Below are positions 25 to 28,025 of a stretch of 28,106 bases of DNA, one piece after another. Under the pieces are notes generated by a model. It had not been told where the DNA came from. It did not search any database and saw nothing but the letters and a program-made list of their open reading frames with translations. The stretch's first letter is position 1; each line of letters begins with the position of its first letter. Made by a program: the position numbers and the translations under genes. Origin of the DNA: a virus; the IMG/VR virus record IMGVR_UViG_3300031521_000299, positions 1-28,106 of that record; one strand, given 5' to 3'.

Positions 25-83
25 GGCTCTTAGCAGTTCTGCGGTCAGGCAGGGCATAAGTCTAAGAGTCTTTTTTTTTGGAG
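25..83 (+). promoter_or_regulatory. Terminator-like leader hairpin 1 (attenuator candidate) upstream of helicase gene
   Basis: An outer stem pairs 25-33 with 62-70; its core is CTCTTAG at 27-33 with CTAAGAG at 62-68. It encloses an inner hairpin, CTGC (39-42) and GCAG (49-52), with loop GGTCAG (43-48). Nine T residues (71-79) follow the outer stem directly, as in an intrinsic terminator, and run into the GGAG ribosome site (80-83) of the helicase gene. The same design recurs at 2767-2830. A terminator placed against the ribosome site of the next gene suggests transcription attenuation or antitermination. It could instead end an upstream transcript that is out of view. Confidence 0.6.
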
Positions 84-89
84 CATAAC

Positions 90-6355: not shown

Positions 6356-6357
6356 AA

Positions 6358-13600: not shown

Positions 13601-13770
13601 GTGCCAGAAGCATCCAATGTAATTGGATTTGGTGCCACTACAGTATTAGCAACATCATACCATATATTTTTAGGCGTCGTGGTAGATCCAGCAACGAAGA
13701 ACTCTACAGTTCCTCCAGAAACCGGCCTGCCCTTAAATGTAAACTGTTCTAGGTACCATCCAAAGTTCAT
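10642..13770 (-). CDS. Tailspike/tail fibre 2 with head-binding domain (1042 aa)
   Basis: I chose ATG 13770, preceded at 5 nt by CTATATA. An in-frame GTG at 13785 would add five residues but lies inside that box. Residues 1-88 form a head-binding domain (GRPVSGGTVEFF..., NPITLDASG, GLYLVVLKDADG) shared with the 872-aa spike, and a GGGGS linker follows at about 89-93. The central part is beta-rich. Near residues 730-750 there is an Asp-box-like YSDDGIHWTKY, so part may be a propeller. The last 150 residues are predicted beta and may trimerise the protein. I see no catalytic signature. It is probably a receptor-binding protein attached to the tail. Confidence 0.75.
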   Translation of the reverse strand: MNFGWYLEQFTFKGRPVSGGTVEFFVAGSTTTPKNIWYDVANTVVAPNPITLDASGTMPQIYPESGLYLVVLKDADGSLLYTRDNVQAGGGGSTSDVDLHRFFTWFICLESYPKPPEMDATLLSNTDKEMMVKYGYPIAAQLQQSNFTTGTSLWYLLSYDGGDPTKDLWKEVNLISGAEIINVDRTLRRNLAPHFDLPINVNDQPVFTALPAGEYSLVLSGDKYWWNPQVVKEFPEPVSNTTSALIHDSSDDQYKWQSIDDIGGKVKVDQADSTAGYLSSKIIGDTDAAGNVNIVVSDIGADNTYKHLGLHVNTDTIYGEILDKMNPPSYDLFGAYPDEVGVCQLTGIGASLRAKTLKDAQGNNLAWNPGTGDAGAVYGRSCIPGYAYVLNATGTQIRKRVWCAFGSTGEIYNSFDRYNSTTRDTSLLTADASYSRIPQGAASCAAYIKDGSNYYWMYGGFVDNYVYLLEDIPANYNDDGTFKASGWVWTPCPNLPKNTAHICSVNTGGFLYTGYQLGGVNYKETIAGTGTTVKSNPPRTNADLVRVITGDGSSDTFALACQPYQSYNSPSATAVDSGGNSLTVSNVAYDGGTSTINVRLAAAPASGLVVTITAHSYQYNQTYDGAGFSGVGSDHYGTYNIIDRDTGRIYTNVSEATTGTFTPSAFNLLPIYVRNSSSDSYGTVKVDRLGTTFGNITSDPYTWWSSIQSAYGLWVATTALKQHASDPIYAYSDDGIHWTKYTDGIGTGTGSTLAIWDSQSDGMNWYVTNMYNSTPLIFELLVDSIPSHKRLVCEKGLGVSGDAFLVDMPSTSVFGTDENGKIVPSSSADIGKNLHLSDLADVSVASRINNQVLTWIDADSKWEPRTPSGGGSSLLVVDTYSKALIQSAIVFSPQQWSLYWTGFDLESGFTISPTSRFTAVLGQAGSSSDTFHFTLGQYSSSTSTYNTLAYSNNVGITTPGFIYGNCDSLSTALTLPGGRYYLGFVTNSTGASIGGLTASALFNDISPYFLSLKKDNLTSSVVPTSFTSVQETLTRYFIKLEA

Positions 13771-13788
13771 ACAAATATATAGCACATG
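13768..13788 (-). repeat. 21-bp upstream repeat, copy A
   Basis: These 21 bases are identical to 16410-16430 and span the start codon, the 5-nt spacer and the CTATATA box of each tailspike gene. The flanks do not match, so the repeat ends sharply on both sides. Confidence 0.95.
13776..13782 (-). promoter_or_regulatory. Late start-box CTATATA for 1042-aa spike
   Basis: CTATATA followed by TTTGT and then the ATG at 13770. It is one of seven boxes at exactly this distance from a start codon. No Shine-Dalgarno sequence is present between box and ATG. Confidence 0.65.
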
Positions 13789-13793
13789 GATAG

Positions 13794-16412
13794 TTATGCA
13801 GTCTTTAGCACAGTCGCGCTAAATTCTATTGTGCAAGCTACACCACTAGGTGTGCTGACTTGAGCATCTGCAAATATATCACCCCAGCGCAAACCTGAAC
13901 TCCATATTGCTGGTGTTGATGCTGTAGGTCCATATAGGCTTTGTACTAGACCCCTGGGGTTAGATACAGATGTGTGTTTTGCACCTAGCAAGGCAAAGTT
14001 AGCGTGATCACCAAAAATACCACTAAGCCCATATGGTATATTACATTCTAGGTGTGTATATGGAATCGCATCACTCTGTATTGCATTAACTGCTAACAAT
14101 GTGCTACCAATTAATATGACATTAGAATTAATCCAATACTTCAGCGCATCCGAAATAGGATTAACATTTATACTGCAGGTGTAAGTATCATCAGCAGTTA
14201 ATGGTACTGTTGTAGAACCACTTACAGTTCTAGCCCAGCTTAACGATATTTGTAATACAGCTACTGATTTGCTTAGGGCTATTAGTCTAATACTATCTGT
14301 TCTTGCAGGAACATTAGTAGTCATATTAGTGCAATCAATAGTAAAATCGGTCCCACTAACCAAAATATTGGAACTCTTACCTGGTATGATATAGCCAGAC
14401 GCGTCTGTAGCTAAGAAATCAGCACTGAGTATTTGTGGCAGGCATGGGCTATACAGAAAAGGGTTGGCGTAAGCCCCATTCTCAGATCTGTCATAAAGAT
14501 TGAAACCAATAATGTTGGACGCAGTTGCGTTCATCTTAGAACTAATTGTTGCCGAGTGTCCTGTCAATAAAGCAGGTGATGTCCAGTACACACTATTTGC
14601 ATCGGCATACTTATAGTACTTTAGAGTAAGACCTGTAGATTGTGAGTATGAGTATAGTGGATAATAGTTAGCTATACTCTGAGTTATGGATGGTGTGTAA
14701 TTAAGGATAGGACCAGCACTAACAGGACTATCCGATGTTGCTGTTATTGTGTAGTTTGTTGATAGATTTCTGAATCCAAAGGTGTCTCCAGCCTTAACTG
14801 CTGGGAACGACACGCCTGATGTATTTGTACTTAAATTTAATGTATTGAAAGTTCCAGGAACAACATTAAAATTAGCTGTATAGAATGTTATAGCGCCTGC
14901 TGCGACATAACTACCATCAGAATCTGCGGTGGCTGTTATTGTAGTTACTAGGGTTGAACCATTGTATATCTGGAACATATCTCCTGTTTTTACAGCGCCA
15001 AAGCTATGGTCAACATAAAGCTTATTATCAGTATACTCAGCATTAATGGTTCTAGTTGACCCTAGGCCATTATAGTTATTCTGTATGGTTGTATATTCTA
15101 TATCCAGTGTTCCTGTTACATTCAAGGCAACATATAAATTTAAGGTGCCTTTACCGTGGATAGATAGATTGGTAAATGTTCCCAAACTAGTCATAACAGG
15201 ATATGTTTTTCCATCAGGTATTTCTAACTTACCGGACAGAGATGCCATTTTAACTTCAAAAACCCAATCTGTAGTCTGTGTACCAAACCAATCAGGCATC
15301 ATATAATTATCACCAAAGTCAAAAGCATAATTGGCTACATTAGTGCGATCAAGATTGAATATCTGATATGGAACTTCAGGCAGCGCTATGTTAGGAATAC
15401 TTATGGTCATTGTACCACTAATAATGCCAGTACATACAATAATGGAATTATTTATAAACATTAGTGGATGCGTTGTTGATATATTCTGTGATGCAATATT
15501 GATGGTTCTATCAAGTATAAGTGTCTGATCGCTAGATGTTACAGATCCTAAAAACTTACTTAAGATGTCATCATCTGATATATCGGAAAAGTATGTGAAC
15601 TTTATTTCGTCAGCAGCAGACGCATCAATCTGAGCTGTTACGTTTTGTCCAAATATATTTGTACTATCAGGTAGAATCTTACTGCCAGCAGCAAAGGTAA
15701 CTCTAATGCTATTACCAGAAACAAAGCTGCCCCCACCACAGATTGTAACTCCTGTAGGTATGGTAAGATTTGACGTTATATATATCTTACCCATTAAACG
15801 TAGGGGCAAATTGTGCCTAGCAGACGAGCGCAATGCCACAACCATAGGCCCACTCTGGCTCACTAATGCATCATATACTACACCAAACCACCGAGGATTC
15901 ATATAGCCATCGGTAATTCTACGCCATACCATAGACCCAGACGTATTAGTTAGAATAACACCATCATCATCAATTTCAGTAGATCCAGGCACAAGTTCAA
16001 ACAAGCCCTCACCGCCATCACCTGCGGTTTCTCGTCCAGTACAGTAAGCTACAGTAACATTTCCTGCCAATGCTCTGATATCATTGTAAGTTCCAACAAA
16101 TGTATATCCTACACTAGAACTAGGGTCTTCACCACCACCAGAACCTAAACCGTCAACAGGAGGAACTATCTGACCTCCGCGATAGTCAGATACACGTATA
16201 CGATAAAGACCTAAACCGTAGATTGCGCCAGGCCAGCCAGACGCGTCACAGATAACGGGATTAGTGCGGGGTATGGTGCATGCAAGATCACTGTAAACTG
16301 CCTTCCCGATATCATTTCCAGATTCGGAGAAGAACAACTGAGCACCCGATGCTAGCTTACCATCATTTGTGCATTCACGTAGGATAACTGGAGTTAATAG
16401 AGTACCGGCCAT
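13794..16412 (-). CDS. Tailspike 1 with head-binding domain and beta-helix-type body (872 aa)
   Basis: The start is ATG 16412, with the CTATATA box 5 nt upstream. Residues 1-80 are a head-binding domain like that of the 1042-aa protein (SGAQLFFSESG, NPVICDASG, GLYRIRVSDYRG). After a GSGGG linker comes the typical entry to a right-handed beta-helix tailspike: GRETAGDGGEGLFEL (residues 126-140), DDDGVIL and WRRITDGYMNPRWFGV (163-178). In P22-like phages such proteins bind and often cleave host surface polysaccharide. No catalytic residues can be placed by eye. Strand-and-turn repeats rich in T, S and N continue to about residue 600, and the C-terminus is probably a trimerisation or second binding domain. 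Confidence 0.8.
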   Translation of the reverse strand: MAGTLLTPVILRECTNDGKLASGAQLFFSESGNDIGKAVYSDLACTIPRTNPVICDASGWPGAIYGLGLYRIRVSDYRGGQIVPPVDGLGSGGGEDPSSSVGYTFVGTYNDIRALAGNVTVAYCTGRETAGDGGEGLFELVPGSTEIDDDGVILTNTSGSMVWRRITDGYMNPRWFGVVYDALVSQSGPMVVALRSSARHNLPLRLMGKIYITSNLTIPTGVTICGGGSFVSGNSIRVTFAAGSKILPDSTNIFGQNVTAQIDASAADEIKFTYFSDISDDDILSKFLGSVTSSDQTLILDRTINIASQNISTTHPLMFINNSIIVCTGIISGTMTISIPNIALPEVPYQIFNLDRTNVANYAFDFGDNYMMPDWFGTQTTDWVFEVKMASLSGKLEIPDGKTYPVMTSLGTFTNLSIHGKGTLNLYVALNVTGTLDIEYTTIQNNYNGLGSTRTINAEYTDNKLYVDHSFGAVKTGDMFQIYNGSTLVTTITATADSDGSYVAAGAITFYTANFNVVPGTFNTLNLSTNTSGVSFPAVKAGDTFGFRNLSTNYTITATSDSPVSAGPILNYTPSITQSIANYYPLYSYSQSTGLTLKYYKYADANSVYWTSPALLTGHSATISSKMNATASNIIGFNLYDRSENGAYANPFLYSPCLPQILSADFLATDASGYIIPGKSSNILVSGTDFTIDCTNMTTNVPARTDSIRLIALSKSVAVLQISLSWARTVSGSTTVPLTADDTYTCSINVNPISDALKYWINSNVILIGSTLLAVNAIQSDAIPYTHLECNIPYGLSGIFGDHANFALLGAKHTSVSNPRGLVQSLYGPTASTPAIWSSGLRWGDIFADAQVSTPSGVACTIEFSATVLKTA

Positions 16413-16430
16413 ACAAATATATAGCACATG
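16410..16430 (-). repeat. 21-bp upstream repeat, copy B
   Basis: Identical over 21 bases to 13768-13788, covering the start codon and CTATATA box of the 872-aa tailspike. This suggests duplication of the promoter and start region together with the spike N-terminus. Confidence 0.95.
16418..16424 (-). promoter_or_regulatory. Late start-box CTATATA for 872-aa spike
   Basis: CTATATA, then TTTGT, then ATG 16412. It lies about 20 bp from the divergent TTGACA of the plus-strand small gene, so the two promoters could interfere with each other. Confidence 0.65.
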
Positions 16431-16440
16431 TAAAAACCTG

Positions 16441-16469
16441 TTGACATGGGCGCATTTTTGTGTTAACTT
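16441..16469 (+). promoter_or_regulatory. Sigma70-type promoter of the 55-aa plus-strand gene
   Basis: A perfect -35 hexamer TTGACA (16441-16446), a 17-bp spacer and TAACTT (16464-16469) as -10. The -10 keeps the three most conserved positions (T, A and final T). The predicted transcript starts near 16476, leaving a leader of about 27 nt with AAAGGA at 16491-16496. Confidence 0.6.
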
Positions 16470-16502
16470 CTATCCATAGCCAATAACACGAAAGGATTGA
16501 GG

Positions 16503-16670
16503 ATGTCTATCATAGCAGCACTTATAGTTCTTATAGTAATTATTTGTGGTATATTTCCACTACTCGGCGTAACGGGTTATATTTGTTTTTTTATGTGTGG
16601 TGGTTTGATATACAATGTGTGCATAAAAGCGTATAAACTTTACCACAAGTTTGTTCCCGGCAAAAAATAA
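16503..16670 (+). CDS. Small two-TM membrane protein, moron-like (55 aa)
   Basis: A short ORF on the strand opposite to all its late neighbours. The start ATG has AAAGGA 6 nt upstream and a TTGACA promoter before that. The product begins MSIIAALIVLIVIICGIF. It has two closely spaced hydrophobic segments (about residues 3-24 and 25-41) with a glycine between them, four cysteines, and a basic tail ending KFVPGKK. Topology is probably a hairpin with the tail inside. Its TAA ends exactly where the convergent ejection gene's stop begins (16671). Its own promoter and reversed strand are hallmarks of a moron; superinfection exclusion, holin or anti-defence roles are possible, but none is shown by sequence. 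Confidence 0.6.
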   Translation: MSIIAALIVLIVIICGIFPLLGVTGYICFFMCGGLIYNVCIKAYKLYHKFVPGKK

Positions 16671-17954
16671 TCACCTTGCTGCTTGGTTTTGCTTCCTAAT
16701 TAGTGCAGGTGCTGATCCTATCAAGTCACCAACACCAAAACCACCCAAACCAGAAATGAGTGATAGTGGCTTGCTACCATAATCAACACTTGATTTTATT
16801 ACGGATGGAATTGCAAAATTATTGGTTAAAGAACTTACTAGAGGACCCGCAATTCTTGGGTGTAGTTCGCCCATAATCTGGGCTGTCTTTTGAACTTTAT
16901 TAGGTAGCCCACTAAGAAAGTTCATACCTTTAGGAGAATCCGGTAACTCTATACCCTTATTGATGCCCTTATAAAAATCAACGGCCTCTTTATCCGATGG
17001 CATGGCCGTTAAGCCAAAACCTTTATAAGATTCTGGATTAGAACGAACCATATACGACTTTATTGCATCTAGTTTTGTTCGTTGGGCATTAGAAAGAGCA
17101 TCTGCTAGAGCTTCGTCTGTATTGCTCAAAGTCCAATCATCTCTGGATGCTGTTGGTGCGCTATAAACGGGAACAGTGTTGTCTTTGACAGCATTAGATA
17201 TTCCTGGATTGAATTCCTGGTTAATATCACTTAAAGCACTTCTGTTTTTTGCATATTGCGCTTGTGCTGCGTTTTCAGCTTCTTTGTATGCTGCTTTTCT
17301 GGCACCAGGACCACCAAAAAAAGATCCCAAATCACGCATTAAAGCAGATGTTAGGCCCGAACCTAGACCAGCACCAAGAGCTGACCCACCAACAGACAAG
17401 GCATTCTCAGATATCGGTTCTGTTTTCCACTCATTGGGCTCATCTGTCAGAGGATTGGCTTTGTTTATAGCTTCACCGGCACCAAAAGCTGCTGCGTTTA
17501 TCAAGCCAGCAGTTAATGGGGATGCTTCTGGAAATAGAGCTGTAGCGCCAATGGCTGCAACAGTGCCTGGATTTTTCTTTGCTAAGTCTACTACAGGACC
17601 GGCATAATCTCTATCTAAACGATTGAGATAGTCCTTTGTTGGCTGTACAAAAGTTTCATTTATAGCTGTAGGTACACTTGTTTCTAGTGTTGTTTGACCA
17701 TTATCGGTTCCTGACGTTGGAAGTGTATCATTAGACTGCAATCCAGAATTGCTGGATCTTACCTGCCCCTGATGCTGATTCCCATAAGTATTATAAAATG
17801 TTGACGAATCAGATACAGATGCCCCACCAGAAGCTAATGCTTTGCGAACCTTCTCGGAGAAGTTGGGATCCTGCATCTTTTGGGCAAAAGTAGATCTATC
17901 TACTGTAGCGCCTAAAGACTCTAATCCATTAGCTATATCATCTACTGTAGCCAT
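16671..17954 (-). CDS. Ejection/internal virion protein, gp16 position (427 aa)
   Basis: The ATG overlaps the previous stop by one base (TAATG). It is the third of three ejection-type genes and occupies the place of P22 gene 16. Residues 120-163 contain an A/G-rich hydrophobic stretch (TVAAIGATALF...AGLINAAAFGAG), and 187-205 a second (VGGSALGAGLGSGL), both like glycine-zipper membrane-inserting helices of ejection proteins. The N-terminal 90 residues are S/T/N-rich and polar. It is shorter than P22 gp16 (609 aa). The inferred role is release into the envelope during infection to help DNA transit; the assignment rests on position and composition. Confidence 0.6.
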   Translation of the reverse strand: MATVDDIANGLESLGATVDRSTFAQKMQDPNFSEKVRKALASGGASVSDSSTFYNTYGNQHQGQVRSSNSGLQSNDTLPTSGTDNGQTTLETSVPTAINETFVQPTKDYLNRLDRDYAGPVVDLAKKNPGTVAAIGATALFPEASPLTAGLINAAAFGAGEAINKANPLTDEPNEWKTEPISENALSVGGSALGAGLGSGLTSALMRDLGSFFGGPGARKAAYKEAENAAQAQYAKNRSALSDINQEFNPGISNAVKDNTVPVYSAPTASRDDWTLSNTDEALADALSNAQRTKLDAIKSYMVRSNPESYKGFGLTAMPSDKEAVDFYKGINKGIELPDSPKGMNFLSGLPNKVQKTAQIMGELHPRIAGPLVSSLTNNFAIPSVIKSSVDYGSKPLSLISGLGGFGVGDLIGSAPALIRKQNQAAR

Positions 17955-19723
17955 TAGAATGATGATCCTGATAATGGTCCTGCAGTCTTTTTAGGTGTAA
18001 AAGCACCAGGACCTGTCTTCTTACCTGCCGCAGGTCCTCCGCCTACACCACCTTTATATTCAGGAAAAAACTCATCAAATTTGTCGCCTTTGCCATAGGC
18101 AGACCATTTGTTTCTGATAAAGTCACTAGTACCTTTTACAAGATATTTAGCGCCATCAATGCTATTTATACCTAATGCTGATTGGTATGCTTGCACCATG
18201 CCGGTAGCAGCAGCATTAGCAGCAGCACCACTAAGTCCGTTTTGTACTAATCCATTTGCTGCACTTTTTACAACGTCGCCTATGTTTGCACCATTCTGTA
18301 CCTGCTGACCAACAGCGTCAACCATACCCTCGCCAACAGGCAAGTTCATACCTTTAATTATTGACTTGCCAAGCATCAACTTAAACGCGCCCCACTCCGC
18401 AGAATTAGGCGATGGTGGATTTTGCATTAAGCTTATGATTTCTTTATCAGCGGCAGAAGCATCAGTTAAATTCTGTTTCTCTGCTGGCGATGGGAGGTAG
18501 CCACTAATAGCCGGATGTGATACCTGACTGAATTCCTTCTCTTGGTTGGCTTTAGCCATAGAATACTGATCTCTACCAAGAACTTCAGATAATGCTGTAG
18601 TATTACCATCAGCTAAAGCTTTAGCAGCAGCAGTTTTAGCGGCCATAACCTTAGCCCCATATGCTTGCACTTCTTGTGTATATCCAAGAACATCAAGCCT
18701 ACCGTCTTTCATTTGGGGGGTAGGTACAGGAACTCCATGAGCTGCTTGTTCAAGTATCGCATCAACACCTTGTTGATTTTGTGACTTACCCATCTTAGCT
18801 AAAGTAGCATCAACACCCTGCTTCAGATTTAGATTTCCTGTTTTTACTACATTATCATAATTAAATATATTTGCATTATCGCCACTAGTTGTTGTTGTAC
18901 TGCCGTTCGGTAGTGTTGGCGTTCCTGATCCAGAATCAGCAAGACGCTCTAAAATGCTACGCCTATCTGGTGTAGAAGTATATGACATACTATTGTCTTG
19001 AGGCGCAGGAGCAGTAAAGGTACCACCACTATTGGCTTCTGGATTAGACGCATGTACAACAACCTGATTAGATGCTGTATTATCATCACTAGAAGTCATA
19101 GCTTTAGCTCCTGTTACAGGCTTAGGGCTAAATGCAGCAGCACCGGTATGTTGTTCTTGCACCTGATTTTGCTGAGATTGTGTAGGAGTAAAAGCTGCGG
19201 CACCATTAGCTCGTGCTGCAGCTCTAGCCCTAACTTCATCTGATGTGTCAGGAGAAGCATCTAAATTTAATGTGCTATTACCTTGAGGGGCTCCGGCACC
19301 TTGTTCATTATTATATTGAATAGACTGACCAGCAGGTATCTGTTCACCATCAATAGAATTCATTCCACCAGCCCCAGGCTGTCCTGGTAGCTTACTTTGA
19401 TCTCTAAGAGCATCAGGATTAAGGCTAAGTGTCTTCAACAGCATATTTGTTGTGCTCTGATTAGTAGCAGTATTATATGTGTCGTTCTGATTTGCTAGCC
19501 ATGCCTTTACCGCATCCGGGCCAACACCATGAGACGATGCTGCATGTATAAAGCCAAACTGGTCCAGAGAACCATCATCATTTGTATGGGCAGACTGCAA
19601 ATTTCTCAGTAATTGCTTATTTGCCCAGTCAATCTCATCGCGTGAACCCTGCTGAGCTGTGTTTAATGCTTGTGCGGATTGAAGAGGGTTCATACCGCCG
19701 GTAACATCTGCGAAAGCAGTCAT
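17954..19723 (-). CDS. Ejection/internal virion protein, gp20 position (589 aa)
   Basis: The start ATG 19723 is preceded by a GGGGGG run formed by the end of the upstream gene. The middle region (about 100-300) is low-complexity (N, Q, A, S, T, P) and probably disordered. A short motif GAAAFTP/GAAAFSPKP recurs at about residues 174 and 195, and again as GAFTPKK near the C-terminus. Residues about 480-530 are A/G/V-rich (GLSGAAANAAATGM). Length and composition resemble P22 gp20-type DNA-transfer proteins (471 aa), and it lies between the gp7-position and gp16-position genes. No enzymatic motif is visible. Confidence 0.6.
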   Translation of the reverse strand: MTAFADVTGGMNPLQSAQALNTAQQGSRDEIDWANKQLLRNLQSAHTNDDGSLDQFGFIHAASSHGVGPDAVKAWLANQNDTYNTATNQSTTNMLLKTLSLNPDALRDQSKLPGQPGAGGMNSIDGEQIPAGQSIQYNNEQGAGAPQGNSTLNLDASPDTSDEVRARAAARANGAAAFTPTQSQQNQVQEQHTGAAAFSPKPVTGAKAMTSSDDNTASNQVVVHASNPEANSGGTFTAPAPQDNSMSYTSTPDRRSILERLADSGSGTPTLPNGSTTTTSGDNANIFNYDNVVKTGNLNLKQGVDATLAKMGKSQNQQGVDAILEQAAHGVPVPTPQMKDGRLDVLGYTQEVQAYGAKVMAAKTAAAKALADGNTTALSEVLGRDQYSMAKANQEKEFSQVSHPAISGYLPSPAEKQNLTDASAADKEIISLMQNPPSPNSAEWGAFKLMLGKSIIKGMNLPVGEGMVDAVGQQVQNGANIGDVVKSAANGLVQNGLSGAAANAAATGMVQAYQSALGINSIDGAKYLVKGTSDFIRNKWSAYGKGDKFDEFFPEYKGGVGGGPAAGKKTGPGAFTPKKTAGPLSGSSF

Positions 19724-19726
19724 CTA

Positions 19727-20512
19727 TTAACCCCCCATCCCATACAGGCTATCTAATGCAGAACCTGCTGAGGATTGACTATTTGCAATGTTGCCAAATG
19801 TGTTGTTGATACCCGAGTTGAAGTTCTTGGCCTTGGAAGCATTAGTATTCCACGCCGTCTCAGCTTGTCCCTGATAATCTGTGTTGATACCAGAGTTGTA
19901 ACCTTGCTGAAGTTGCTGGTTAGAATTAGTTGCAGACAAGCCCATATTAGCCAGATTACCGTAGTTTTGGATCTGCTGCTGCTGATAATTGTTGTTGTTA
20001 GAGTAATTCTGTTGTTGCTGATTAAACGTCTGATTATTGCCTTGAAGCATCTGATTATAAGCATTGTTATAATTAGTCATGGCAAGATTGGCTGTGTTTG
20101 CGGATAGTGCCTTAGCTAAACCACCACCAGTTCCACCGGAAGCGATAGCATTAGCTTCCATAGCTTTATTGCTTTGGTCTGTAGTATAAGCAGCCGACGG
20201 GTTAAGATAGTTATTAACAGCATTGCTTGCAGAATTATCAGTAACAGTTGGTGTTGTCGCTTGCTGACGATTAACTATACCAGACGTGAACCCATTTAGC
20301 CCAGTTTCACCACCAGAAGTGTACGGCGAGTAAGCTGCGTTAGCTCCTTGCTGCCCCTGCTGAAGAGTGTTTATACCCTTGTTAGAAAGATTTTGATAAT
20401 CTTTGTTTGCTGTATTTAGGGAGTCATTAGCTTGCTGCATGCCGATATAGTTACCGAGTGCAGAAGTTAGTGCTCCTGATGATTCTCCGAGTGATCCAAA
20501 TAATCCAGCCAT
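19727..20512 (-). CDS. Ejection/internal virion protein, gp7 position (261 aa, N/Q-rich)
   Basis: ATG 20512 has the CTATATA box 5 nt upstream. The N-terminus MAGLFGSLGESSGALTSALG is small-residue rich, like phage DNA-injection proteins, and is followed by helical polar segments. Residues about 153-185 are an extreme asparagine/glutamine tract (NQQQQNYSNNNNYQQQQ). Size is close to P22 gp7 (229 aa), and the gene is first of the ejection trio. It probably leaves the virion with the DNA. P22 gp7 is processed after synthesis; whether this protein is cannot be seen. Confidence 0.6.
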   Translation of the reverse strand: MAGLFGSLGESSGALTSALGNYIGMQQANDSLNTANKDYQNLSNKGINTLQQGQQGANAAYSPYTSGGETGLNGFTSGIVNRQQATTPTVTDNSASNAVNNYLNPSAAYTTDQSNKAMEANAIASGGTGGGLAKALSANTANLAMTNYNNAYNQMLQGNNQTFNQQQQNYSNNNNYQQQQIQNYGNLANMGLSATNSNQQLQQGYNSGINTDYQGQAETAWNTNASKAKNFNSGINNTFGNIANSQSSAGSALDSLYGMGG

Positions 20513-20517
20513 ATTAT

Positions 20518-20524
20518 TATATAG
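20518..20524 (-). promoter_or_regulatory. Late start-box CTATATA for gp7-position ejection gene
   Basis: CTATATA, then ATAAT, then ATG 20512. The box begins directly after the TAA of the upstream gene (20525-20527). Confidence 0.65.
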
Positions 20525-21001
20525 TTAATTCTTGATTGTGTATGTCAGGTATACAACACGACGACCTAACGGTATAGTTACTTCTTTTGTTCCAGCAAGA
20601 TACTCTGTGTTTTCATATATAAAAGGCAGAGCAGACTCAAAGGGCAGATCTAGACTAAATGCTGCTGGTGATGCAGATCCCAAATCATGCGATATGCAGC
20701 ATAACGACCCATTTAACACATGAGTAAGAGTCTTGCTCCAACTACTTCCATTGTATAGATAACTGTCTGTGCCAATTGTACAAGTATTACCAGCAACAGA
20801 ACTCGGTGGATATGCTGTTACAATGCCCAAATACTTTGATGTACCTGTAACAGGAGATTTGTTCTGTGGTGTACTAGATCTTGTAGCAATATCACCAAGA
20901 TTCTTGAGATACTTTGTCCAAGGAAGAGACATCATACCACTGTCTAGTAATGGTGTGTTTACTGGGATGGGACTAGCAATTACTTTTTGATCAGTAGACA
21001 T
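20525..21001 (-). CDS. Small virion-associated protein in tail-needle position (158 aa)
   Basis: It lies between the gp10-like and gp7-position genes, where P22 has the tail needle gene 26. The N-terminus has the phrase PLLDSGMMSLPWTKYLKNLGDIA, matching a common N-terminal motif of short phage structural proteins (P...W..(F/Y)L..L). The remainder is beta-like, with YLYNGSSWSKT, a motif often seen in fibre or needle tips. There is no long heptad coiled coil of the gp26 kind, so needle identity is doubtful. The ATG follows the gp10 stop closely (TAACATG). Confidence 0.55.
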   Translation of the reverse strand: MSTDQKVIASPIPVNTPLLDSGMMSLPWTKYLKNLGDIATRSSTPQNKSPVTGTSKYLGIVTAYPPSSVAGNTCTIGTDSYLYNGSSWSKTLTHVLNGSLCCISHDLGSASPAAFSLDLPFESALPFIYENTEYLAGTKEVTIPLGRRVVYLTYTIKN

Positions 21002-21002
21002 G

Positions 21003-22559
21003 TTAGAACCTGCAGGGTAAAGACTCTACGATTATACCTATAAGAATAACTTGCACAGGAGCTGTTACGGATATTCGCCAAACTCTATTTCTTCCTATTC
21101 CAGATGTAAATACACGGCTACGTTTGAAATATTCGCCCATTCGTCCCATAGGAGCATCTGTCTCACTTGACCAAGATTCTCCAGAATCATCAGACCAAGC
21201 AATCCAGCATTTAGGTTCCATAGCATTATCGTATACTGTGTCTTTAGCTAAACCTACACCCTGTTGAAAAATTGGTTGAACGGCATTATAACGGACAAGA
21301 GTACCATTGTTAAAGCTGATGGGGCTTGTTTTGATACACTTTATGTAATTAGTCAACTCGTTGTCTGGATTGTCGTTAAGATAGTATGTTGGATCAAACT
21401 CAAACACTGTGCTGTGTGTGCTATGACCAACGATAAGCTTATCAAAATTATGCGTTGCATATAATGCTTTATGTGCTTCAACAAGTCCTGTTGCCTGATT
21501 AAGGTATGTTCTCTCATGCCAAGAATCTGTAACTGTGTCGTAAACAAAAGTACGTCCTCCCTTGGGAAATTGAAGAACATAAAATGTATGACCTGCTTGA
21601 GAATAAGCATAACCTATTGCATCCGAGTATGTATCCATCTCTTCAATAATCTGCTCTAACCCACGCTTGCTTATACGCTGTGGTTGCATACCATTGTTAG
21701 TAAATACGCCAACAATACCAGTTCTGTCTGAACCTAACCAATATACATTGTTAGCAATGTTGACAATGGAACGTGGAGAACTACAGCCTATCTGCATTAT
21801 GGCACCATCATATCGTGCATATAGTTGTCCATTATAGTTACCTGTATCATAAGCTACTTCACAAGTATTCAACCCAAACAGCCACACATAGTTCTGAGCA
21901 CAACATAAACCAACAATATTATCTGCTTGAGCAAACTTACGACCTGACTGGATTGGATTCCAATAGCCATCAATTACTGCTGGATCATAATCTTTAGATG
22001 TATTATCGGCATTATAAGCATAATAAGGGTTTGAGTAGTAGTATTCATTCGTATTTGGTACATTGATGATAAACCTTGTATCATTATAAGCTACATGTGT
22101 CGGTGCTAGAGTACCTTCAGCATTTCCTGGAAAATACTCATCTCTAATCTGTGTGAATGTAATTGTAGTATAGTCAAATATATAACCAGCAGAACCGTCA
22201 ACAAGCATCAACTGCTTGCCATTCTCAGCCATCTGTACTTGCTCTGTAGATGTGATTAATGTACCAAGTTCTGTTTTAGAACCATTCATATCTATTTCAT
22301 AGAACTTATTACCAAACACACCATAAGTTGCTCCGGCTGCGGATGTGTATAGTCCACGACAAGCTCCTTTATTTATTGCATCTGTTGTTCCAAACTTACG
22401 CATGCCTGGTATCTTGAGCAAATAATATTGAGCTTTAGAGTTCTCTGACTGTGCTACTTCAAGATATAAATTTTGACATACCTCAATACCAAGAGAGTAG
22501 AATGGTGAAGCATAAGGCTTTGATCCTAGCGGTATAGTAGTAGCTGTAATATTAGCCAT
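21003..22559 (-). CDS. Packaged DNA stabilisation protein, P22 gp10-like tail hub
   Basis: A 518-aa protein (P22 gp10 is 472). The N-terminus PLGSKPYASPFYSLGIEVCQNLYLE and the sequence PGMRKFG...CRGLYTSAAGATYGVFGNKFYEI match the phage stabilisation family, which forms the tail hub beneath the portal and gp4. Repeated beta blades (NVYWLGSDRTGIVGVF, FVYDTVTDSWHERTY) suggest a propeller. The ATG lies 3 nt after the gp4-like stop, and GGCGGGG within the end of that gene could serve as ribosome site. Gene order portal-scaffold-coat-gp4-gp10 supports the call. Confidence 0.85.
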   Translation of the reverse strand: MANITATTIPLGSKPYASPFYSLGIEVCQNLYLEVAQSENSKAQYYLLKIPGMRKFGTTDAINKGACRGLYTSAAGATYGVFGNKFYEIDMNGSKTELGTLITSTEQVQMAENGKQLMLVDGSAGYIFDYTTITFTQIRDEYFPGNAEGTLAPTHVAYNDTRFIINVPNTNEYYYSNPYYAYNADNTSKDYDPAVIDGYWNPIQSGRKFAQADNIVGLCCAQNYVWLFGLNTCEVAYDTGNYNGQLYARYDGAIMQIGCSSPRSIVNIANNVYWLGSDRTGIVGVFTNNGMQPQRISKRGLEQIIEEMDTYSDAIGYAYSQAGHTFYVLQFPKGGRTFVYDTVTDSWHERTYLNQATGLVEAHKALYATHNFDKLIVGHSTHSTVFEFDPTYYLNDNPDNELTNYIKCIKTSPISFNNGTLVRYNAVQPIFQQGVGLAKDTVYDNAMEPKCWIAWSDDSGESWSSETDAPMGRMGEYFKRSRVFTSGIGRNRVWRISVTAPVQVILIGIIVESLPCRF

Positions 22560-22562
22560 CGA

Positions 22563-23297
22563 TTATACCCCGCCAAAGAAGTTAAATGGACTGCCACCCG
22601 AGAAGTCATTACGTGTTCTGTGCATTCCGTTCATCAAACCTCGTGCCTTGATATGCTTGCTGCAGCCACTAAGTTGTATGATTAATCCTTGAGGAACATC
22701 CTGACCATACAGACCAAGCAATCTAGTAGCTAACTCAAGATATAGCATTTGGAAGTATTCGGGAGGGTCAATATAGGGATCTGTTACATTCTCATAATCT
22801 GTTAAGTATCTACGACCTTGTACGCGTACAGCCCATCCCTGAGATAGTCCTGGATAAAAATAAACATTTTGCAGAGGATATTCAGAATCCAGATAAGCGC
22901 TATCTGGAATAGCAAACACATTCTGTACTATTTTAGATCTGTACTCTTCATATGTTTTTAACGTCAATAAAAAGTTATTATTACCGTTTGCCGAGCTATT
23001 CATCAGTATGATCTGATCTATAGAACTTGGTCTTATTGGTATATCACCAGCAATAGGGTTTAACGGGTCTGTGTTGTCCGTACCTAATGTGATAAATTGT
23101 TTGTTTGTGGTTGCTGAATATGTCTGATCAAACTTAAGATTAGCTCTATTGTTGATAGAATACTCTGCTCGTATAGCATTAAGCAGCATCAGTGCTTCTC
23201 GTGCTTGGTTGGGTGGTATGCTATCATTAAAATATGCAACACCGGCTGCCCTAAGTGCCGAGAATAACAGGTCGTATACAGTGAGAGTACTTAGCAT
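22563..23297 (-). CDS. Head-to-tail adaptor, P22 gp4-like tail accessory factor (244 aa)
   Basis: I chose ATG 23297 (MLSTLTVYDLLFSALR), which has CTATATA 5 nt before it; an upstream GTG-like extension of 11 residues would run through that box. The opening pattern of AL...G...F.D..PP.QAREALMLLNAI is typical of the P22 tail accessory factor family. That factor binds the portal first and closes the packaged head. At 244 aa it is longer than P22 gp4 (166), with extra C-terminal sequence ending GGSPFNFFGGV. It begins a new transcription unit after the coat terminator and is tightly followed by the gp10-like gene. Confidence 0.8.
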   Translation of the reverse strand: MLSTLTVYDLLFSALRAAGVAYFNDSIPPNQAREALMLLNAIRAEYSINNRANLKFDQTYSATTNKQFITLGTDNTDPLNPIAGDIPIRPSSIDQIILMNSSANGNNNFLLTLKTYEEYRSKIVQNVFAIPDSAYLDSEYPLQNVYFYPGLSQGWAVRVQGRRYLTDYENVTDPYIDPPEYFQMLYLELATRLLGLYGQDVPQGLIIQLSGCSKHIKARGLMNGMHRTRNDFSGGSPFNFFGGV

Positions 23298-23302
23298 ATC
23301 AA

Positions 23303-23309
23303 TATATAG
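23303..23309 (-). promoter_or_regulatory. Late start-box CTATATA for gp4-like gene
   Basis: CTATATA, then TTGAT, then ATG 23297. It stands just downstream of the coat terminator, as expected for a promoter that restarts transcription. Confidence 0.65.
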
Positions 23310-23316
23310 GTAGAAA

Positions 23317-23345
23317 TGAAAAAGCCCCACATTTCTATGAGGCTC
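23317..23345 (-). terminator. Intrinsic terminator after coat gene
   Basis: On the minus strand AGCCTCA pairs with TGGGGCT (7 bp including one G-U) around an 8-nt loop, followed by TTTTTC. It lies about 30 nt past the coat stop and just before the gp4-like promoter box, so it would cap high-level coat transcription. Confidence 0.75.
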
Positions 23346-23373
23346 AGTTTTATGTTACAATAAGATTTTCTGC

Positions 23374-24642
23374 TTAGTTGTGACGAATACGGATAATCCA
23401 CTCAGGACGTAAAGTCTTAAATCCTAAGAAACTATCAAGACGCGAGACAAACCCTACCGTGCCCGAAGCTCCTACCATGTCATACCCACGAAGGAAACGA
23501 ACGCGTAGCTGATTCTCATCAATCTCTTCGGCCATGTCAAACGAACTCTTCTTCGGCATCTCAAACTTGGGAGATACAGCAGCAATAGCGGCGCGATGGA
23601 ATACCAAGGATTCCTGGCCACTTGCAGCAGTAGCATCAATGAGAGTAAGAGTTGTGCTTGCAATAGGTGCAGAGATGTTCTGATCTGGACCAGAAACAAC
23701 GGGAGCAGGAGACACCGTTACAGTAGTTGCACCAATAGCTGCCGCAGTAACCACCGTGAACTGCTTGTAGTTTGCAGTTACGGCCTTAGTAAGAGGATTA
23801 ACATGATAAACAGTAGAAACGAACACGTCTCCGGCATTAACCGCTCCTGTAAGAGCAGTAACTGTCAAAGTACCGGTTTCAGCATAAGCAGACAAGCTGT
23901 TACTAGCTGCAGAAGTTACAGCCAATGTACCCTGAGCGCCGTTTACGTGTGTAGCCATAGACTGAGAAACGTTGAACTCAATGCCGGAGAAGTCTCCAAT
24001 GTATCCCTTTGTGTAGATACGAGAAATTGATTCCTGGGCATTAAACAGCGTTAACTGAGCGTTAGCAAGCTGACGGTTAGCACGCGGTGACAAAACACCA
24101 ACAATATCACCATCGTCCGGGCAGCCAGAGTCAAGAAGGACCTGGAATGCATTAAGAATAGTATCGGAAGTCAATGCTGTAGCATACGAACCAACAACCC
24201 AACCAGCACTATTTGGGGTAGCAGTAGTAACGCCACCATCAACAGATGAACCAGCATAGCAGTTAACACAGGCACTAGCAATATCTGTATCAAATGTAGC
24301 CGCAAGCACTGCCACGGCCTGCTTTACATAGCGCGAAGAGAAGTCTTCAATCTTCAGGGCAAGATCAGCATCAAAGAAAGTAAACGGAACAGTGTACGAG
24401 TTAGAAACAGTCAACTGCGAATACTTTTCAGTTACTGCCTGAGCACTGAATGCTAGGTTGTTGCGATTTACTGAAAACAGGACAGGAATACGAACACGGT
24501 ACTGAGCACCAATCTTATTCTCTGAAGTAGCAAACTTATCGTTATACTGCCAGTCAACCTTGCGAGCAACGATCAAGCTGTTCTCAAACTGCATCAGTAA
24601 TTCCTTACTGATGATGGTAGAGGTAAGTACTGTATTAGCCAT
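23374..24642 (-). CDS. Major coat protein, P22 gp5-like
   Basis: A 422-aa protein (P22 coat is 430). The sequence around YRVRIPVLFSVNRNNLAF, TVPFTFFDADLALKIEDFSSRYVKQAVAVLA and DTDIASACVNCY follows the P22-like HK97-fold coat pattern, with DFxxRYxKxAxxxLAxxxDxxI as the backbone-helix landmark. An insertion with small residues (about 215-320, rich in A, V, T and G) corresponds to the extra domain on the P22 coat. It has a long structured leader with a promoter box about 130 nt upstream and a terminator behind it, so it is probably transcribed as a short abundant message. The ATG has only a weak GTGAG ribosome site. Confidence 0.88.
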   Translation of the reverse strand: MANTVLTSTIISKELLMQFENSLIVARKVDWQYNDKFATSENKIGAQYRVRIPVLFSVNRNNLAFSAQAVTEKYSQLTVSNSYTVPFTFFDADLALKIEDFSSRYVKQAVAVLAATFDTDIASACVNCYAGSSVDGGVTTATPNSAGWVVGSYATALTSDTILNAFQVLLDSGCPDDGDIVGVLSPRANRQLANAQLTLFNAQESISRIYTKGYIGDFSGIEFNVSQSMATHVNGAQGTLAVTSAASNSLSAYAETGTLTVTALTGAVNAGDVFVSTVYHVNPLTKAVTANYKQFTVVTAAAIGATTVTVSPAPVVSGPDQNISAPIASTTLTLIDATAASGQESLVFHRAAIAAVSPKFEMPKKSSFDMAEEIDENQLRVRFLRGYDMVGASGTVGFVSRLDSFLGFKTLRPEWIIRIRHN

Positions 24643-24682
24643 TATTGTATCTCACTTTTCTGCCTATTAGGCGGTTATGTTT

Positions 24683-24718
24683 GCCCTGCACATTTTTTAC
24701 TTCTCATCTATGCAGGGC
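24683..24718 (-). promoter_or_regulatory. Stem-loop in coat gene 5' leader
   Basis: GCCCTGCA (24683-24690) and TGCAGGGC (24711-24718) form a perfect 8-bp stem with a 20-nt loop. There is no T-tract on either strand, so it is not an intrinsic terminator. It sits about 40 nt before the coat ATG inside the 143-nt gap 24643-24785. mRNA stabilisation, processing or translational control of coat is a plausible role. A small dyad, GCCTATTAGGC, lies at 24662-24672. Confidence 0.6.
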
Positions 24719-24777
24719 TTGCATTGTGAGAATTACAACTAAGGTATTTTAACGAGTTCTTAGCCCCTCTAATAATT

Positions 24778-24784
24778 TATATAG
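24778..24784 (-). promoter_or_regulatory. Late box CTATATA without adjacent start codon (coat promoter candidate)
   Basis: CTATATA lies one base after the scaffold TAG and about 130 nt before the coat ATG; no ATG follows at +5. As the only intergenic copy not fused to a start codon, it suggests the box is a transcription rather than a translation signal. Confidence 0.6.
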
Positions 24785-24785
24785 T

Positions 24786-25667
24786 CTACCTACCAGTACG
24801 CCATTTTCTATATTCTGCTGGACTCATATCTTCAACTCTCTTTGTTGGTGCCCTAGTACCCTTTACTGTTGGTGTTACAGGCTTTGTACTCTGCGTGAAT
24901 GTTGGTTTACTATCAGATTCTTCTGATTCGGATGTGTCGTTAGATACGGGGGTACGTGAGAACTTTGCACTCCACTTTGCCATTGCCCTAATTGCGCCAA
25001 TCTCATCATTAGATGATAGCATTTGCATAATGTCAGCACCATCTGTACACAAGTGCTTAATAAGATCTGGACCATTCTCGTCAGTAACAATCGCATACCG
25101 TACCTGAGGGGATAGTTTTGTAGCATACTGTTTAGTAAACCAATCAGTAGCCTCCTTAACTTCTGGATCAGCCTTGATAGACTCTTCTAGGCGCACTTCA
25201 AATTTAGATGCTAGGTCTTTTTCTACCTGAGCAGCGGCACGCTGATATTCTTGCTGTCTCTGTCTTGCTTCAAAAGCCTTAAATGTTTCCTGCTGGAGAT
25301 ACGCCTCACGAGCCTTGAGCCAAGCATAATTATCAACCTCACCATCAGCGGTCTTGAATTGTTCAGGTTTAATGTCATCAATATTTGTGATCTCTGGCAT
25401 TTTAGGGCCATTGACCTTAGCTTCTAATTCAGAATACTTCTGCTGCATCTCATTATAGCGTGCTTCAGTTTCTCTGAACTTGTTGTTAACTTCCTGAAAC
25501 CTATGATACGGAATTGGATCAGGTTCCTTTTTATTCCAGGGACGCTCTGGTTTGGTTTCTTCTGGTGTTGGTGTAGCTTCAGAGTTATTGGTAGTTTCAA
25601 CTACTTCAACTGGATTAGATTCTACTTCAACTTCTACTGGTTCTGTAATGGGTGTTTCTGTGTCCAT
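24786..25667 (-). CDS. Scaffolding protein, P22 gp8-like
   Basis: A 293-aa protein (P22 scaffold is 303). I chose ATG 25667 (MDTETPIT), 5 nt after a CTATATA box; an upstream in-frame start would add 12 residues encoded through that box. The N-terminal 65 residues are acidic and proline-rich. Residues about 70-165 are a highly charged coiled coil (FRETEARYNEMQQKYSELEA). The end is basic, with SPAEYRKWRTGR, the helix-turn type coat-binding tail common in scaffolds of P22-like phages. Position between portal and coat supports the call. It would direct procapsid assembly and then leave the shell. Confidence 0.8.
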   Translation of the reverse strand: MDTETPITEPVEVEVESNPVEVVETTNNSEATPTPEETKPERPWNKKEPDPIPYHRFQEVNNKFRETEARYNEMQQKYSELEAKVNGPKMPEITNIDDIKPEQFKTADGEVDNYAWLKAREAYLQQETFKAFEARQRQQEYQRAAAQVEKDLASKFEVRLEESIKADPEVKEATDWFTKQYATKLSPQVRYAIVTDENGPDLIKHLCTDGADIMQMLSSNDEIGAIRAMAKWSAKFSRTPVSNDTSESEESDSKPTFTQSTKPVTPTVKGTRAPTKRVEDMSPAEYRKWRTGR

Positions 25668-25672
25668 ACTTT

Positions 25673-25679
25673 TATATAG
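25673..25679 (-). promoter_or_regulatory. Late start-box CTATATA for scaffold gene
   Basis: CTATATA, then AAAGT, then ATG 25667. It follows the portal terminator. Confidence 0.65.
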
Positions 25680-25681
25680 TA

Positions 25682-25695
25682 GTACAGGCATGTAC
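25682..25695 (-). promoter_or_regulatory. GTACA-N4-TGTAC dyad at scaffold promoter
   Basis: A 14-bp inverted repeat, 5-bp arms around a 4-bp centre, directly upstream of the scaffold CTATATA box. It resembles the longer dyad at 28025-28040 at the same kind of promoter. It is a possible protein-binding site. Confidence 0.45.
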
Positions 25696-25708
25696 AACAA
25701 CACAATAA

Positions 25709-25735
25709 TAAAAAAGAGAGCTTGTTAGGCTCTCT
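25709..25735 (-). terminator. Intrinsic terminator after portal gene
   Basis: On the minus strand AGAGAGC pairs perfectly with GCTCTCT around a 7-nt loop and is followed by TTTTTT. It begins about 6 nt after the portal stop and precedes the scaffold promoter. Confidence 0.85.
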
Positions 25736-25741
25736 AAATTA

Positions 25742-27673
25742 TTACTGTTGGTTTGGTTTCACGACTAGCATATTTAATTCAGTTTTATGAATGTCGTGTC
25801 TATGATCCATTTCTTGCTGGAATATCTTAGTCTGATTCTCAATATGACGATTAACTATGTCGTGCTCCATCTTTGTAGCTTCCAAAGATTTATCTTCCTT
25901 AGAATCTGCTTGACGTAGAGATAAGTCATATTGATACTTTGCTTGCATAGCTTCCATCTGCATCTGATGCTTAGCCTGTTCTGCCTGCAAGTGAGTGGCC
26001 TGCTCCTGCTTAAGAGCCTGGTTCTCTGCTTGCATTTGTTGCATTTTCTGTTGCATCTGCTGCATCTGATTCTGTGTGGCAGCTAGCTGTTGTGGTGCTT
26101 GATCAGCATTGCTTGGATTAGATGCAGCAAGTACCTGTGATGGTATTGCAGCTCTTAAGCGCATAGCCAGCTCATCAGCACCTGTGAAGTTCAGGTTCTT
26201 TACAATCAGATCACCAGCAAGTTGCATCATGGCGGGGTATTTTGTGACCAAGTCAGATAGACGATCGGCTGTCTCGGATCTCTGTGACTCGTAGGTAGGT
26301 CCTGTACTTAGACGGATGCTATACTTACCTGATGTAAGATCGTGTTTAACCCATTGACCATTTTCAACGTATGCTTGGTTGATCTTAGCCGCAGTAATCT
26401 GACCATCTTCACCCATGATCTGAGCTATCTTAGGTTCGTCATAATAATGTGGTATAGCATCTACTAAGATCTTGCCCAACATCAAGATCCCATCTTTGAG
26501 CGAATCATAATAGTTATAGATACCAATGTTTCCCTCTGAAATTTGCAGATTTATAGCCTTACCAGACTGTGTTTGAGGGATGTCCTGTAATGGGTCTCTA
26601 ATACCAATAGCCGATCTTAGATCTGTATCAGCATCCTGCGCTGCTTGGATAAGTGCTGTTGGTGGTACCTGTGGTTGTATTGGTACAGGAGCACCGGTGC
26701 CAGAGTCTTCGTATGGCAGATAATTATACTGTTGTATGTTGTTGGAATCCCAAACCTTTTGGTAAGGACCCATCTGTTTATCAGATATCAGCCACTGCTG
26801 CTTTGCAGATCTAGCTAAATAATCAGCTATTTCAGACTTGGTATAGTTGAGTAGTTTTTGGATATCCTTAACGTCACGACAAATGCCCTTATACTCTTTT
26901 ATATCATCAACAACAAACTCTTCACCAACAATATAAACAATAGGAATATATCGCGGCTTATAGTTATCTAGCTTCTCCAGAATCTCATTGGCTGTCATGA
27001 TGACCATTTTAACTTGACCATCTTCTTTATACCAATACTCTGCTATCTGTACCTTATCCTTTTGAAACCAATTGCTCTCAGGATCTAATGGTTCTGTGCT
27101 AGCTTCTGGGTACTTCTTTTCAAAATCCTTTTTCAGCATCCATGATATAACGAACGCATATTTCATATCTTCAAAGCAAAAACGTTCGGCATCTGGATCA
27201 ATATATACATTAGTAGGGTCGCGAATACCACGAATATAGAAATCAGGTTCGCCATCCATATCTGGCTCAATAACTACACGAAAAGCGCCAAGTCCGCCCA
27301 TCATCTCTTGCTTCAAGGAGTTGGCAAATACGGTCTTAGCATTACTATTATACATGATATACTTGATAAGACCATCATATACTTTTGCAGTATTCTGATC
27401 AGCACCATCCGTATATGGACTACACGCCAATGACGGCATGTTCATTCTAGCATTGTTAACAATATATTTAATATTGGCTAATAGCTTATTGTAGTTTAGA
27501 GAAGATCTGTCTTCCATGTTTCGTATCTTGAGAATCTTATCATCCCACTGGTTCCCCGCGCAGAATCTAACATCCTCACGATATTGGTCATGTATACGCT
27601 CCCACTGATCGTGAGCATACTCAAATCTCTCTAATGCTTCCTTAATCAGGTCTTCTTCAGTTGTATCAGCCAT
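25742..27673 (-). CDS. Portal protein, P22 gp1-like
   Basis: A 643-aa protein (P22 gp1 is 725). The N-terminus (FEYAHDQWERIHDQYREDVRF..GNQW), the segment NYNKLLANIKYIVNNARMN and the central DPTNVYIDPDAERFCFEDMKYAF belong to the P22-like portal family, which forms the dodecameric DNA channel at one capsid vertex. Residues about 527-595 are a glutamine- and methionine-rich coiled coil (QMQQMQQKMQQMQAENQAL), matching the position of the P22 portal barrel helix. ATG 27673 has a CTATATA box 5 nt upstream and no Shine-Dalgarno site. An intrinsic terminator follows. Confidence 0.9.
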   Translation of the reverse strand: MADTTEEDLIKEALERFEYAHDQWERIHDQYREDVRFCAGNQWDDKILKIRNMEDRSSLNYNKLLANIKYIVNNARMNMPSLACSPYTDGADQNTAKVYDGLIKYIMYNSNAKTVFANSLKQEMMGGLGAFRVVIEPDMDGEPDFYIRGIRDPTNVYIDPDAERFCFEDMKYAFVISWMLKKDFEKKYPEASTEPLDPESNWFQKDKVQIAEYWYKEDGQVKMVIMTANEILEKLDNYKPRYIPIVYIVGEEFVVDDIKEYKGICRDVKDIQKLLNYTKSEIADYLARSAKQQWLISDKQMGPYQKVWDSNNIQQYNYLPYEDSGTGAPVPIQPQVPPTALIQAAQDADTDLRSAIGIRDPLQDIPQTQSGKAINLQISEGNIGIYNYYDSLKDGILMLGKILVDAIPHYYDEPKIAQIMGEDGQITAAKINQAYVENGQWVKHDLTSGKYSIRLSTGPTYESQRSETADRLSDLVTKYPAMMQLAGDLIVKNLNFTGADELAMRLRAAIPSQVLAASNPSNADQAPQQLAATQNQMQQMQQKMQQMQAENQALKQEQATHLQAEQAKHQMQMEAMQAKYQYDLSLRQADSKEDKSLEATKMEHDIVNRHIENQTKIFQQEMDHRHDIHKTELNMLVVKPNQQ

Positions 27674-27678
27674 AAATT

Positions 27679-27685
27679 TATATAG
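27679..27685 (-). promoter_or_regulatory. Late start-box CTATATA for portal gene
   Basis: CTATATA, then AATTT, then ATG 27673. It begins one base after the stop of the 108-aa gene. Confidence 0.65.
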
Positions 27686-27686
27686 T

Positions 27687-28013
27687 TCAAACGGTTTCTG
27701 TTGACAGTTTTGCGAGCGTCAGATCTTGTTCTACACTTTCCATAGTGTCCTTAGCCATACTCTCTAACTTATCTGTAGCGTCGCGAACGGCCAAATTTGC
27801 CTTGATCATCTTATTGATTAGCGAGAGAATATTGATCTTTGGTATGTAGATCTTACCTTTGTAGCGTATGCCTTGAGGCATGATTTCATGCTTCATTAAA
27901 CCTCCTAAAATTTCATTATCAAATCCATATCGAGGAAGATCCTGGATAAGTATCCATTCACCGCGAGAAAATCTAAAGTTGTCGGGTACGGGAGAGTCTG
28001 TATTTGTTGTCAT
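27687..28013 (-). CDS. Small protein with MerR/excisionase-like HTH, possible small terminase (108 aa)
   Basis: ATG 28013 follows a CTATATA box by 5 nt. Residues about 25-65 (LPRYGFDNEILGGLMKHEIMPQGIRYKGKIYIPKINIL) have the order of a MerR/excisionase-type winged helix: helix, turn, recognition helix, then a basic wing with a YIP strand. The C-terminal 40 residues are helical and could oligomerise. This two-part layout recalls lambda Nu1, and its place beside the portal makes a small terminase possible. It would, however, lie after rather than before whatever the upstream gene is. A transcription factor is the main alternative. Confidence 0.5.
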   Translation of the reverse strand: MTTNTDSPVPDNFRFSRGEWILIQDLPRYGFDNEILGGLMKHEIMPQGIRYKGKIYIPKINILSLINKMIKANLAVRDATDKLESMAKDTMESVEQDLTLAKLSTETV

Positions 28014-28018
28014 GTATT

Positions 28019-28025
28019 TATATAG
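28019..28025 (-). promoter_or_regulatory. Late start-box CTATATA for 108-aa gene
   Basis: CTATATA, then AATAC, then ATG 28013. Confidence 0.65.

Follow-up and report, generated by a model that had tools for sequence, protein, structure and literature searches.

We describe seven genes in a bacteriophage genome whose mRNAs probably begin directly with the initiating ATG. In the window, which is the whole 28,106-nt stretch of DNA analysed here, CTATATA is followed by exactly five bases and an ATG in seven places (CTATATANNNNNATG), all on the minus strand. We propose that CTATATA would be the single -10-type element of the late promoters of this phage, fused to the start codon, and that a phage-encoded sigma-like protein would redirect the host RNA polymerase core to it. 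The first transcribed base would then be the A of the ATG, give or take about one position, which would yield leaderless mRNAs, and the later genes of each operon would be translated mostly from ordinary Shine-Dalgarno (SD) sites. Taken as a whole, we favour this explanation on balance, with modest confidence. We infer leaderlessness and late timing from the geometry of the sites and the gene content; the transcription start and the factor are likewise predictions.

The window is an IMG/VR record and a fragment of a longer genome. Over the regions compared, it is an exact match to part of the 35,624-base contig IMGVR_UViG_3300030047_000065, whose ends share about 205 bases, which suggests that this contig is probably complete. 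Judging by its gene content, the genome is that of a P22-like podophage, a small and poorly known bacterial virus. It encodes a P22-type structural module with portal, coat and Hc3 (DNA stabilisation) proteins, as well as a large terminase, a collagen-like tail protein and a VanY-type endolysin.

All seven minus-strand starts listed by an earlier, sequence-only reading of this DNA were found where that reading had placed them. Dinucleotide-shuffled versions of the window contained 0.13 copies of CTATATA-N5-ATG on average and two at most, and none of 100 shuffles reached seven. The bare heptamer was not enriched (9 observed versus 10.1 expected), so the unusual part is its pairing with an ATG at exactly five bases. 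Among minus-strand spacings of 0 to 24 nt between box and ATG, N5 occurred seven times, N9 once, N16 twice and all others not at all. There was no significant depletion of stray CTATATA within genes (4 versus 8.9, fraction 0.06); the remaining copies all lie inside genes, at 8684 in the window, at L008 2976 and 2983 on opposite strands, and at L009 730. When the seven starts were aligned, only the bases from -12 to -6 and the ATG were invariant. Position -13, where conservation ends, is a purine in six starts (RCTATATA) and a C in one, the base just 5' of the ATG (-1) is a pyrimidine in all seven, and 30 of the 35 spacer bases are A or T.

The boxes stand in front of single genes and gene runs. 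From the right-hand end of the window, the first (28011..28025, minus strand as are all that follow; spacer AATAC) starts a 108-aa gene at 27687-28013 that has no SD site. The second (27671..27685, AATTT) starts the portal gene (25742-27673; PF16510, 1e-121) and the third (25665..25679, AAAGT) the scaffold gene (24786-25667; phrog_8865, 1.4e-14). The box at 23295..23309 (TTGAT) starts an operon running from 23297 to 20525, which includes the Hc3 gene (21003-22559; phrog_578, 3.6e-81), and the box at 20510..20524 (ATAAT) starts an operon from 20512 to 16671. The last two boxes share the spacer TTTGT: the one at 16410..16424 starts an 872-aa gene (13794-16412), and the one at 13768..13782 starts a gene run from 13770 to 3617, in which a 1042-aa protein comes first and tail and endolysin genes follow. 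Since the sites at 13770 and 16412 have "catgtg", box, spacer and ATG in common, these two are not fully independent.

None of the seven box starts has an SD match of at least 4 nt, compared to 20 of the 31 other starts (Fisher P = 0.0025). The lack of SD sites claimed earlier for the box genes is thus borne out, but it is not unique to them, as 11 of the 31 other starts have no SD match by the same rule. The earlier statement that no TTGACA-like box recurs upstream also stands: the seven starts share no -35 box, and every alignment column from -70 to -17 stays at or below 1 bit. A TA-like signal some 10-12 bp upstream of the start codon has been described as an in-silico sign of leaderless genes (Zheng 2011, PMC3160421), and all seven starts show it, with TATATA beginning 11 bases 5' of the ATG and no SD site.

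Two additional promoter-like boxes depart from the 5-nt spacing, so that exactly five bases are found at seven of nine promoter-like boxes. The claim that the distance never varies is therefore correct for the seven listed sites and incorrect for these two. The first, on the longer contig (L008:4587-4593), is separated by six bases from an ATG at 4600 and precedes small ORFs and the terminase gene. The second (aCTATATA, 24784-24778, minus strand) has no adjoining start codon. It lies one base past the scaffold stop and 135 nt upstream of the ATG (24642) of the P22-type coat protein gene (23374..24642, minus strand; PF11651, 2e-27). This coat box and the four boxes at 28013, 27673, 20512 and 13770 start 0-14 nt past the preceding stop codon. 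Two of the boxes have a terminator-like hairpin shortly upstream: one hairpin lies after the coat gene (23322..23345, minus strand), with a T-rich tail that ends beside the 23309 box, and one after the portal gene (25715..25735, minus strand), upstream of the 25679 box. Considering that the searched stretch has 16 terminator-like sites where 11.8 are expected, any single site is weak evidence.

The positions of these boxes bear on whether CTATATA could be a translation-initiation signal, that is, a ribosome site of the non-SD kind, with the true promoters elsewhere. The box does occupy the position of an SD site in seven genes that have none, but a ribosome site fits poorly with the fixed spacing, with boxes that lie away from any start or at six bases, and with boxes found at operon starts and not at internal genes. 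Nor is CTATATA known to match the anti-SD region of 16S rRNA. The hairpins right before two boxes, the closeness of boxes to preceding stop codons, the six-base spacing on the longer contig and the box 135 nt from the coat gene all fit promoters better than ribosome-binding sites, and we consider a ribosome site improbable.

The sequence that separates the coat box from the ATG of the coat gene is predicted to be highly structured. The stretch 24630-24772 folds at -38.8 kcal/mol (z -4.03), and none of 200 shuffles was as stable. In the predicted structured leader of the coat mRNA (24643..24772, minus strand), AUUCUCAC forms the outer helix with GUGAGAU just before the ATG. Such a leader may stabilise or regulate the coat mRNA. 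Two pairs of promoters are alike beyond the box: the coat box (24784) and the 28013 site have both ACTGGTAGGTAG, which lies upstream, and CTATATAAAT in common, and the 13770 and 16412 sites are paired by "catgtg" and an identical spacer. These pairs look as if they were cassettes copied within the genome.

The sequence-only reading had suggested looking for the motif in the rest of the genome and in relatives, and one relative, IMGVR_UViG_3300048598_000020, was found by a scan with an Hc3 alignment, among the best 80 matches listed. Its Hc3 protein is 93% identical to that of the window phage, and the DNA is about 64-76% identical in the longer matches. CTATATA-N5-ATG is kept at all four orthologous starts that its contig covers (23297, 20512, 16412 and 13770), and the four orthologous predicted late starts all read CTATATATTGGTATG; the remaining orthologous sites fall outside the contig. 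In this comparison, which rests on one relative, identity from -60 to -13 is 16, 35, 24 and 9 of 48 positions, with the box identical at seven of seven positions each time. At start 13770, the box is thus kept despite an upstream identity of 9/48. We consider the fusion of promoter and start codon, as first proposed from the sequence, very probable, because box and spacing are kept in a relative with diverged flanks, because all seven starts lack an SD site and two boxes have hairpins upstream, and because the coat gene has an upstream box with no adjoining ATG.

The gene content around the replication module differs somewhat between the two phages. GIY-YIG and HNH endonuclease-like genes flank this module in both (L008:188-694 and L009:428-994; relative, L196:5134-5712 and 6184-6747), with two HNH copies in the relative and one in the window phage. 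Different large proteins are encoded at the corresponding place (window 78-1793, plus strand, versus L196:2335-4260 in the relative), and the similarity between them is confined to a short stretch at the C terminus (47.6% over 42 aa). This difference is possibly the result of a replication-module swap.

The motif was rare in wider surveys. Searches for close relatives with the portal, ATPase-like, gp55-like and terminase proteins returned only the phage's own longer contig. CTATATA-N5-ATG was absent around the best 80 loci listed from a distant portal scan, from 52 P22-like records searched over their full length (48 of the 80 contigs and four phage records), and around the other 79 of the best 80 Hc3 loci listed. 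Twenty of the best 80 Hc3 contigs were searched whole, and the motif was found in two: four times in the relative and once in another contig, where we take it as chance. Two more viral scans contained no further close member, the first returning one 22%-identical locus, and two scans of bacterial genomes contained no member of the lineage. We also scanned, without guidance, 135 contigs no shorter than 6 kb (1.88 Mb in all, with pieces of T4, phiEco32 and P23-45 among them) for any AT-rich hexamer that recurs at a single distance upstream of ORF ATGs in four or more cases. The scan was positive for three sequences only: the window, the relative and Thermus phage P23-45.

A phage polymerase or a sigma-like factor had been suggested as the reader of the box, and the genome favours the second of these. 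T7 promoters carry a CACTATA core, which CTATA resembles, so the box could in principle belong to promoters for a T7-type single-subunit RNA polymerase encoded by the phage. T7-type promoters, however, span about 20 bp, unlike the seven starts, in which nothing is conserved beyond -13. The contig looks complete, yet none of the 30 proteins scanned, which include every gene product of at least 200 aa, matches an RNA polymerase; a six-frame RNA_pol search, run with no working control, was negative as well. A T7-type promoter is therefore very hard to credit. That a phage sigma-like factor reads the box is likely, given the presence of two clear sigma-like genes and one possible one.

These three sigma-like genes lie in the part of the genome that is missing from the window. 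The first encodes a 266-aa protein (L008:985-1785; phrog_351, 5.1e-10). The second encodes a 188-aa ECF-like sigma factor (L008:2553-3119) that matches Pfam Sigma70_ECF above the cut-off and phrog_1740 at 1.6e-13. The third encodes a 129-aa protein (L008:3990-4379) with a weak PHROG match to the T4 late sigma (gp55) family (E 0.063). Ranked by an eight-sequence gp55 profile, the 129-aa ORF comes first of 217 phage ORFs (E 0.078). With Aeh1 added to the profile, it scores 7.1 bits versus a best of 4.4 among 3519 background ORFs of 100-220 aa, and its E-values by local gp55 profiles range from 0.056 to 0.078. Pairwise BLAST gave an E-value of 0.22, and neither a six-frame search with the gp55 PHROG family (E up to 10) nor a PDB search with the 129-aa protein returned a match. 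Predicted structures were too poor to be used as search queries, with a mean pLDDT of 38.7 for the 129-aa protein and 43.0 for the 266-aa protein. The profile ranking is thus suggestive only. The gp55-like 129-aa protein is the leading candidate, and its identification as the specific factor is quite possible while falling a little short of likely. Because its homology to gp55 is weak, we keep the ECF-like sigma and the 266-aa protein as candidates.

Searches with these proteins in other phages gave few hits. With tblastn against phage records, the 129-aa, 266-aa and ATPase-like proteins had no match, and the 188-aa protein had four weak matches, to crAss-like phages. The counterpart of the 266-aa protein in the relative is 39% identical and scores weakly as a sigma factor (0.031 in one search, no match in another); the contig of the relative does not include the region of the gp55-like and ECF-like genes. 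Upstream of the 266-aa gene (L008:950-985), six bases separate a host-type TTGACA-17-TATATT from the ATG. Given this near-consensus promoter, the regulator encoded by the phage may be an early product, perhaps likewise translated with no leader. Host-type promoter-like matches in that L008 stretch are at chance level (21 versus 21.7 expected), and the promoter was not evident by eye in the relative.

The predicted late promoters resemble those of T4-type phages in their layout. The T4 late promoter is described as an 8-bp box starting at -13, with no -35 element and with AT-rich downstream DNA, and in the late box of Aeromonas phage Aeh1, a/gC replaces TA at -13/-12 (PMC2988020). The T4 gp55-type box is TATAAATA (-13 to -6) and the Aeh1 box is RCTAAATA, one base from the RCTATATA present at six of the seven window sites. 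The window phage shares the lack of a -35 element and the AT-rich downstream DNA with this type, and its boxes would be in the T4/Aeh1 register (-13 to -6) only with a transcription start at the A of the ATG. Unlike T4, it encodes only a weakly gp55-like protein. The distance to the gene also differs. In 45 kb of T4, 13 boxes are followed by gene starts at 14-73 nt, and in 49 kb of Aeh1, seven RCTAAATA boxes are followed by gene starts at 18-33 nt, with SD sites visible after most of these boxes, whereas a leader of 0 nt is predicted at the seven window sites.

A podophage with its own sigma factor is also known. In phiEco32 and SU10, the sigma factor gp36 is reported to use one -10-like motif, tAATGTATAtA, and the sigma gene is under a consensus host promoter (PMC4281155). 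The window phage is similar in being a podophage with sigma-like genes of its own, one -10-like motif, and a host-type promoter before one of these genes, but CTATATA differs from the gp36 motif AATGTATA. In 50 kb of phiEco32, genes start 33-59 nt after five boxes, so that leaders follow these boxes, unlike the predicted leaderless starts of the window; the T4 and phiEco32 lists cover boxes up to 80 nt from an annotated start. The ECF-like protein showed no pairwise similarity to phiEco32 gp36, and a PF07638 search of phiEco32 found no match.

A box fused to the start codon has a parallel in Thermus phage P23-45, where TTATTCYTTYATG is fused to an ATG 11 times (nine exact, two with one mismatch) in 50 kb, versus 0.08 expected, for a pattern chosen after inspection of its starts. 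Work by Berdygulova in 2011 is said to have found the middle and late mRNAs of this phage leaderless. As in the window phage, the box lies at a fixed distance from the ATG, but its sequence differs, and the host phylum of P23-45 itself favours leaderless genes. P23-45 is described as using the host holoenzyme on extended -10 promoters (PMC7403470). In Deinococcus-Thermus bacteria, -10 motifs are reported 6-7 bp before ORFs with leaderless mRNAs (PMC12340547); these are bacterial genes read by RpoD from a degenerate motif, unlike the starts of the window phage. In phage phiKZ, the late motif TATG overlaps the transcription start (PMC4666361). The window phage would likewise have a short late motif at the transcription start, but transcription in phiKZ begins at the G of TATG and is carried out by a multisubunit polymerase of the phage itself, for which no match was found in the window phage. 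From its sequence, the present case appears to join two known kinds, the sigma-type phage late box and the leaderless fusion.

These parallels allow for the same fused, leaderless promoters being read by a host holoenzyme, of the sigma-70 type or another, perhaps with help from a phage protein, while the sigma-like genes serve other promoters. TATATA does resemble the sigma-70 -10 box, and the host-type promoter before the 266-aa gene, the Deinococcus-Thermus motifs and the TA-like signals of bacterial leaderless genes are consistent with this reading. A -35 box is nevertheless absent at all seven sites, the invariant C at -12 and the fixed 5-nt spacing suit the T4/Aeh1 late box better, the host-type promoter count is that expected by chance, and the phage carries sigma-like genes of its own. 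We therefore regard reading by a host holoenzyme as unlikely, and prefer a phage sigma-like factor.

If confirmed, this lineage joins a phage sigma-type box with a position locked to the start codon, which differs from the one-box phage late promoters examined in T4, Aeh1 and phiEco32, where 14-73 nt lie between box and gene. Tentatively, the lineage may have fused a gp55-type late sigma promoter to the ATG, leaving the first gene of nearly all late operons leaderless and the abundant coat gene alone with a structured leader, in which case a one-step switch could shift the structural genes to 70S/AUG-first translation. Since the other phage genes mostly use SD sites, the phage would offer a clean natural system for leaderless translation. 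Confirmation would also suggest that a gp55-type late switch operates in a 35-kb P22-like podophage.
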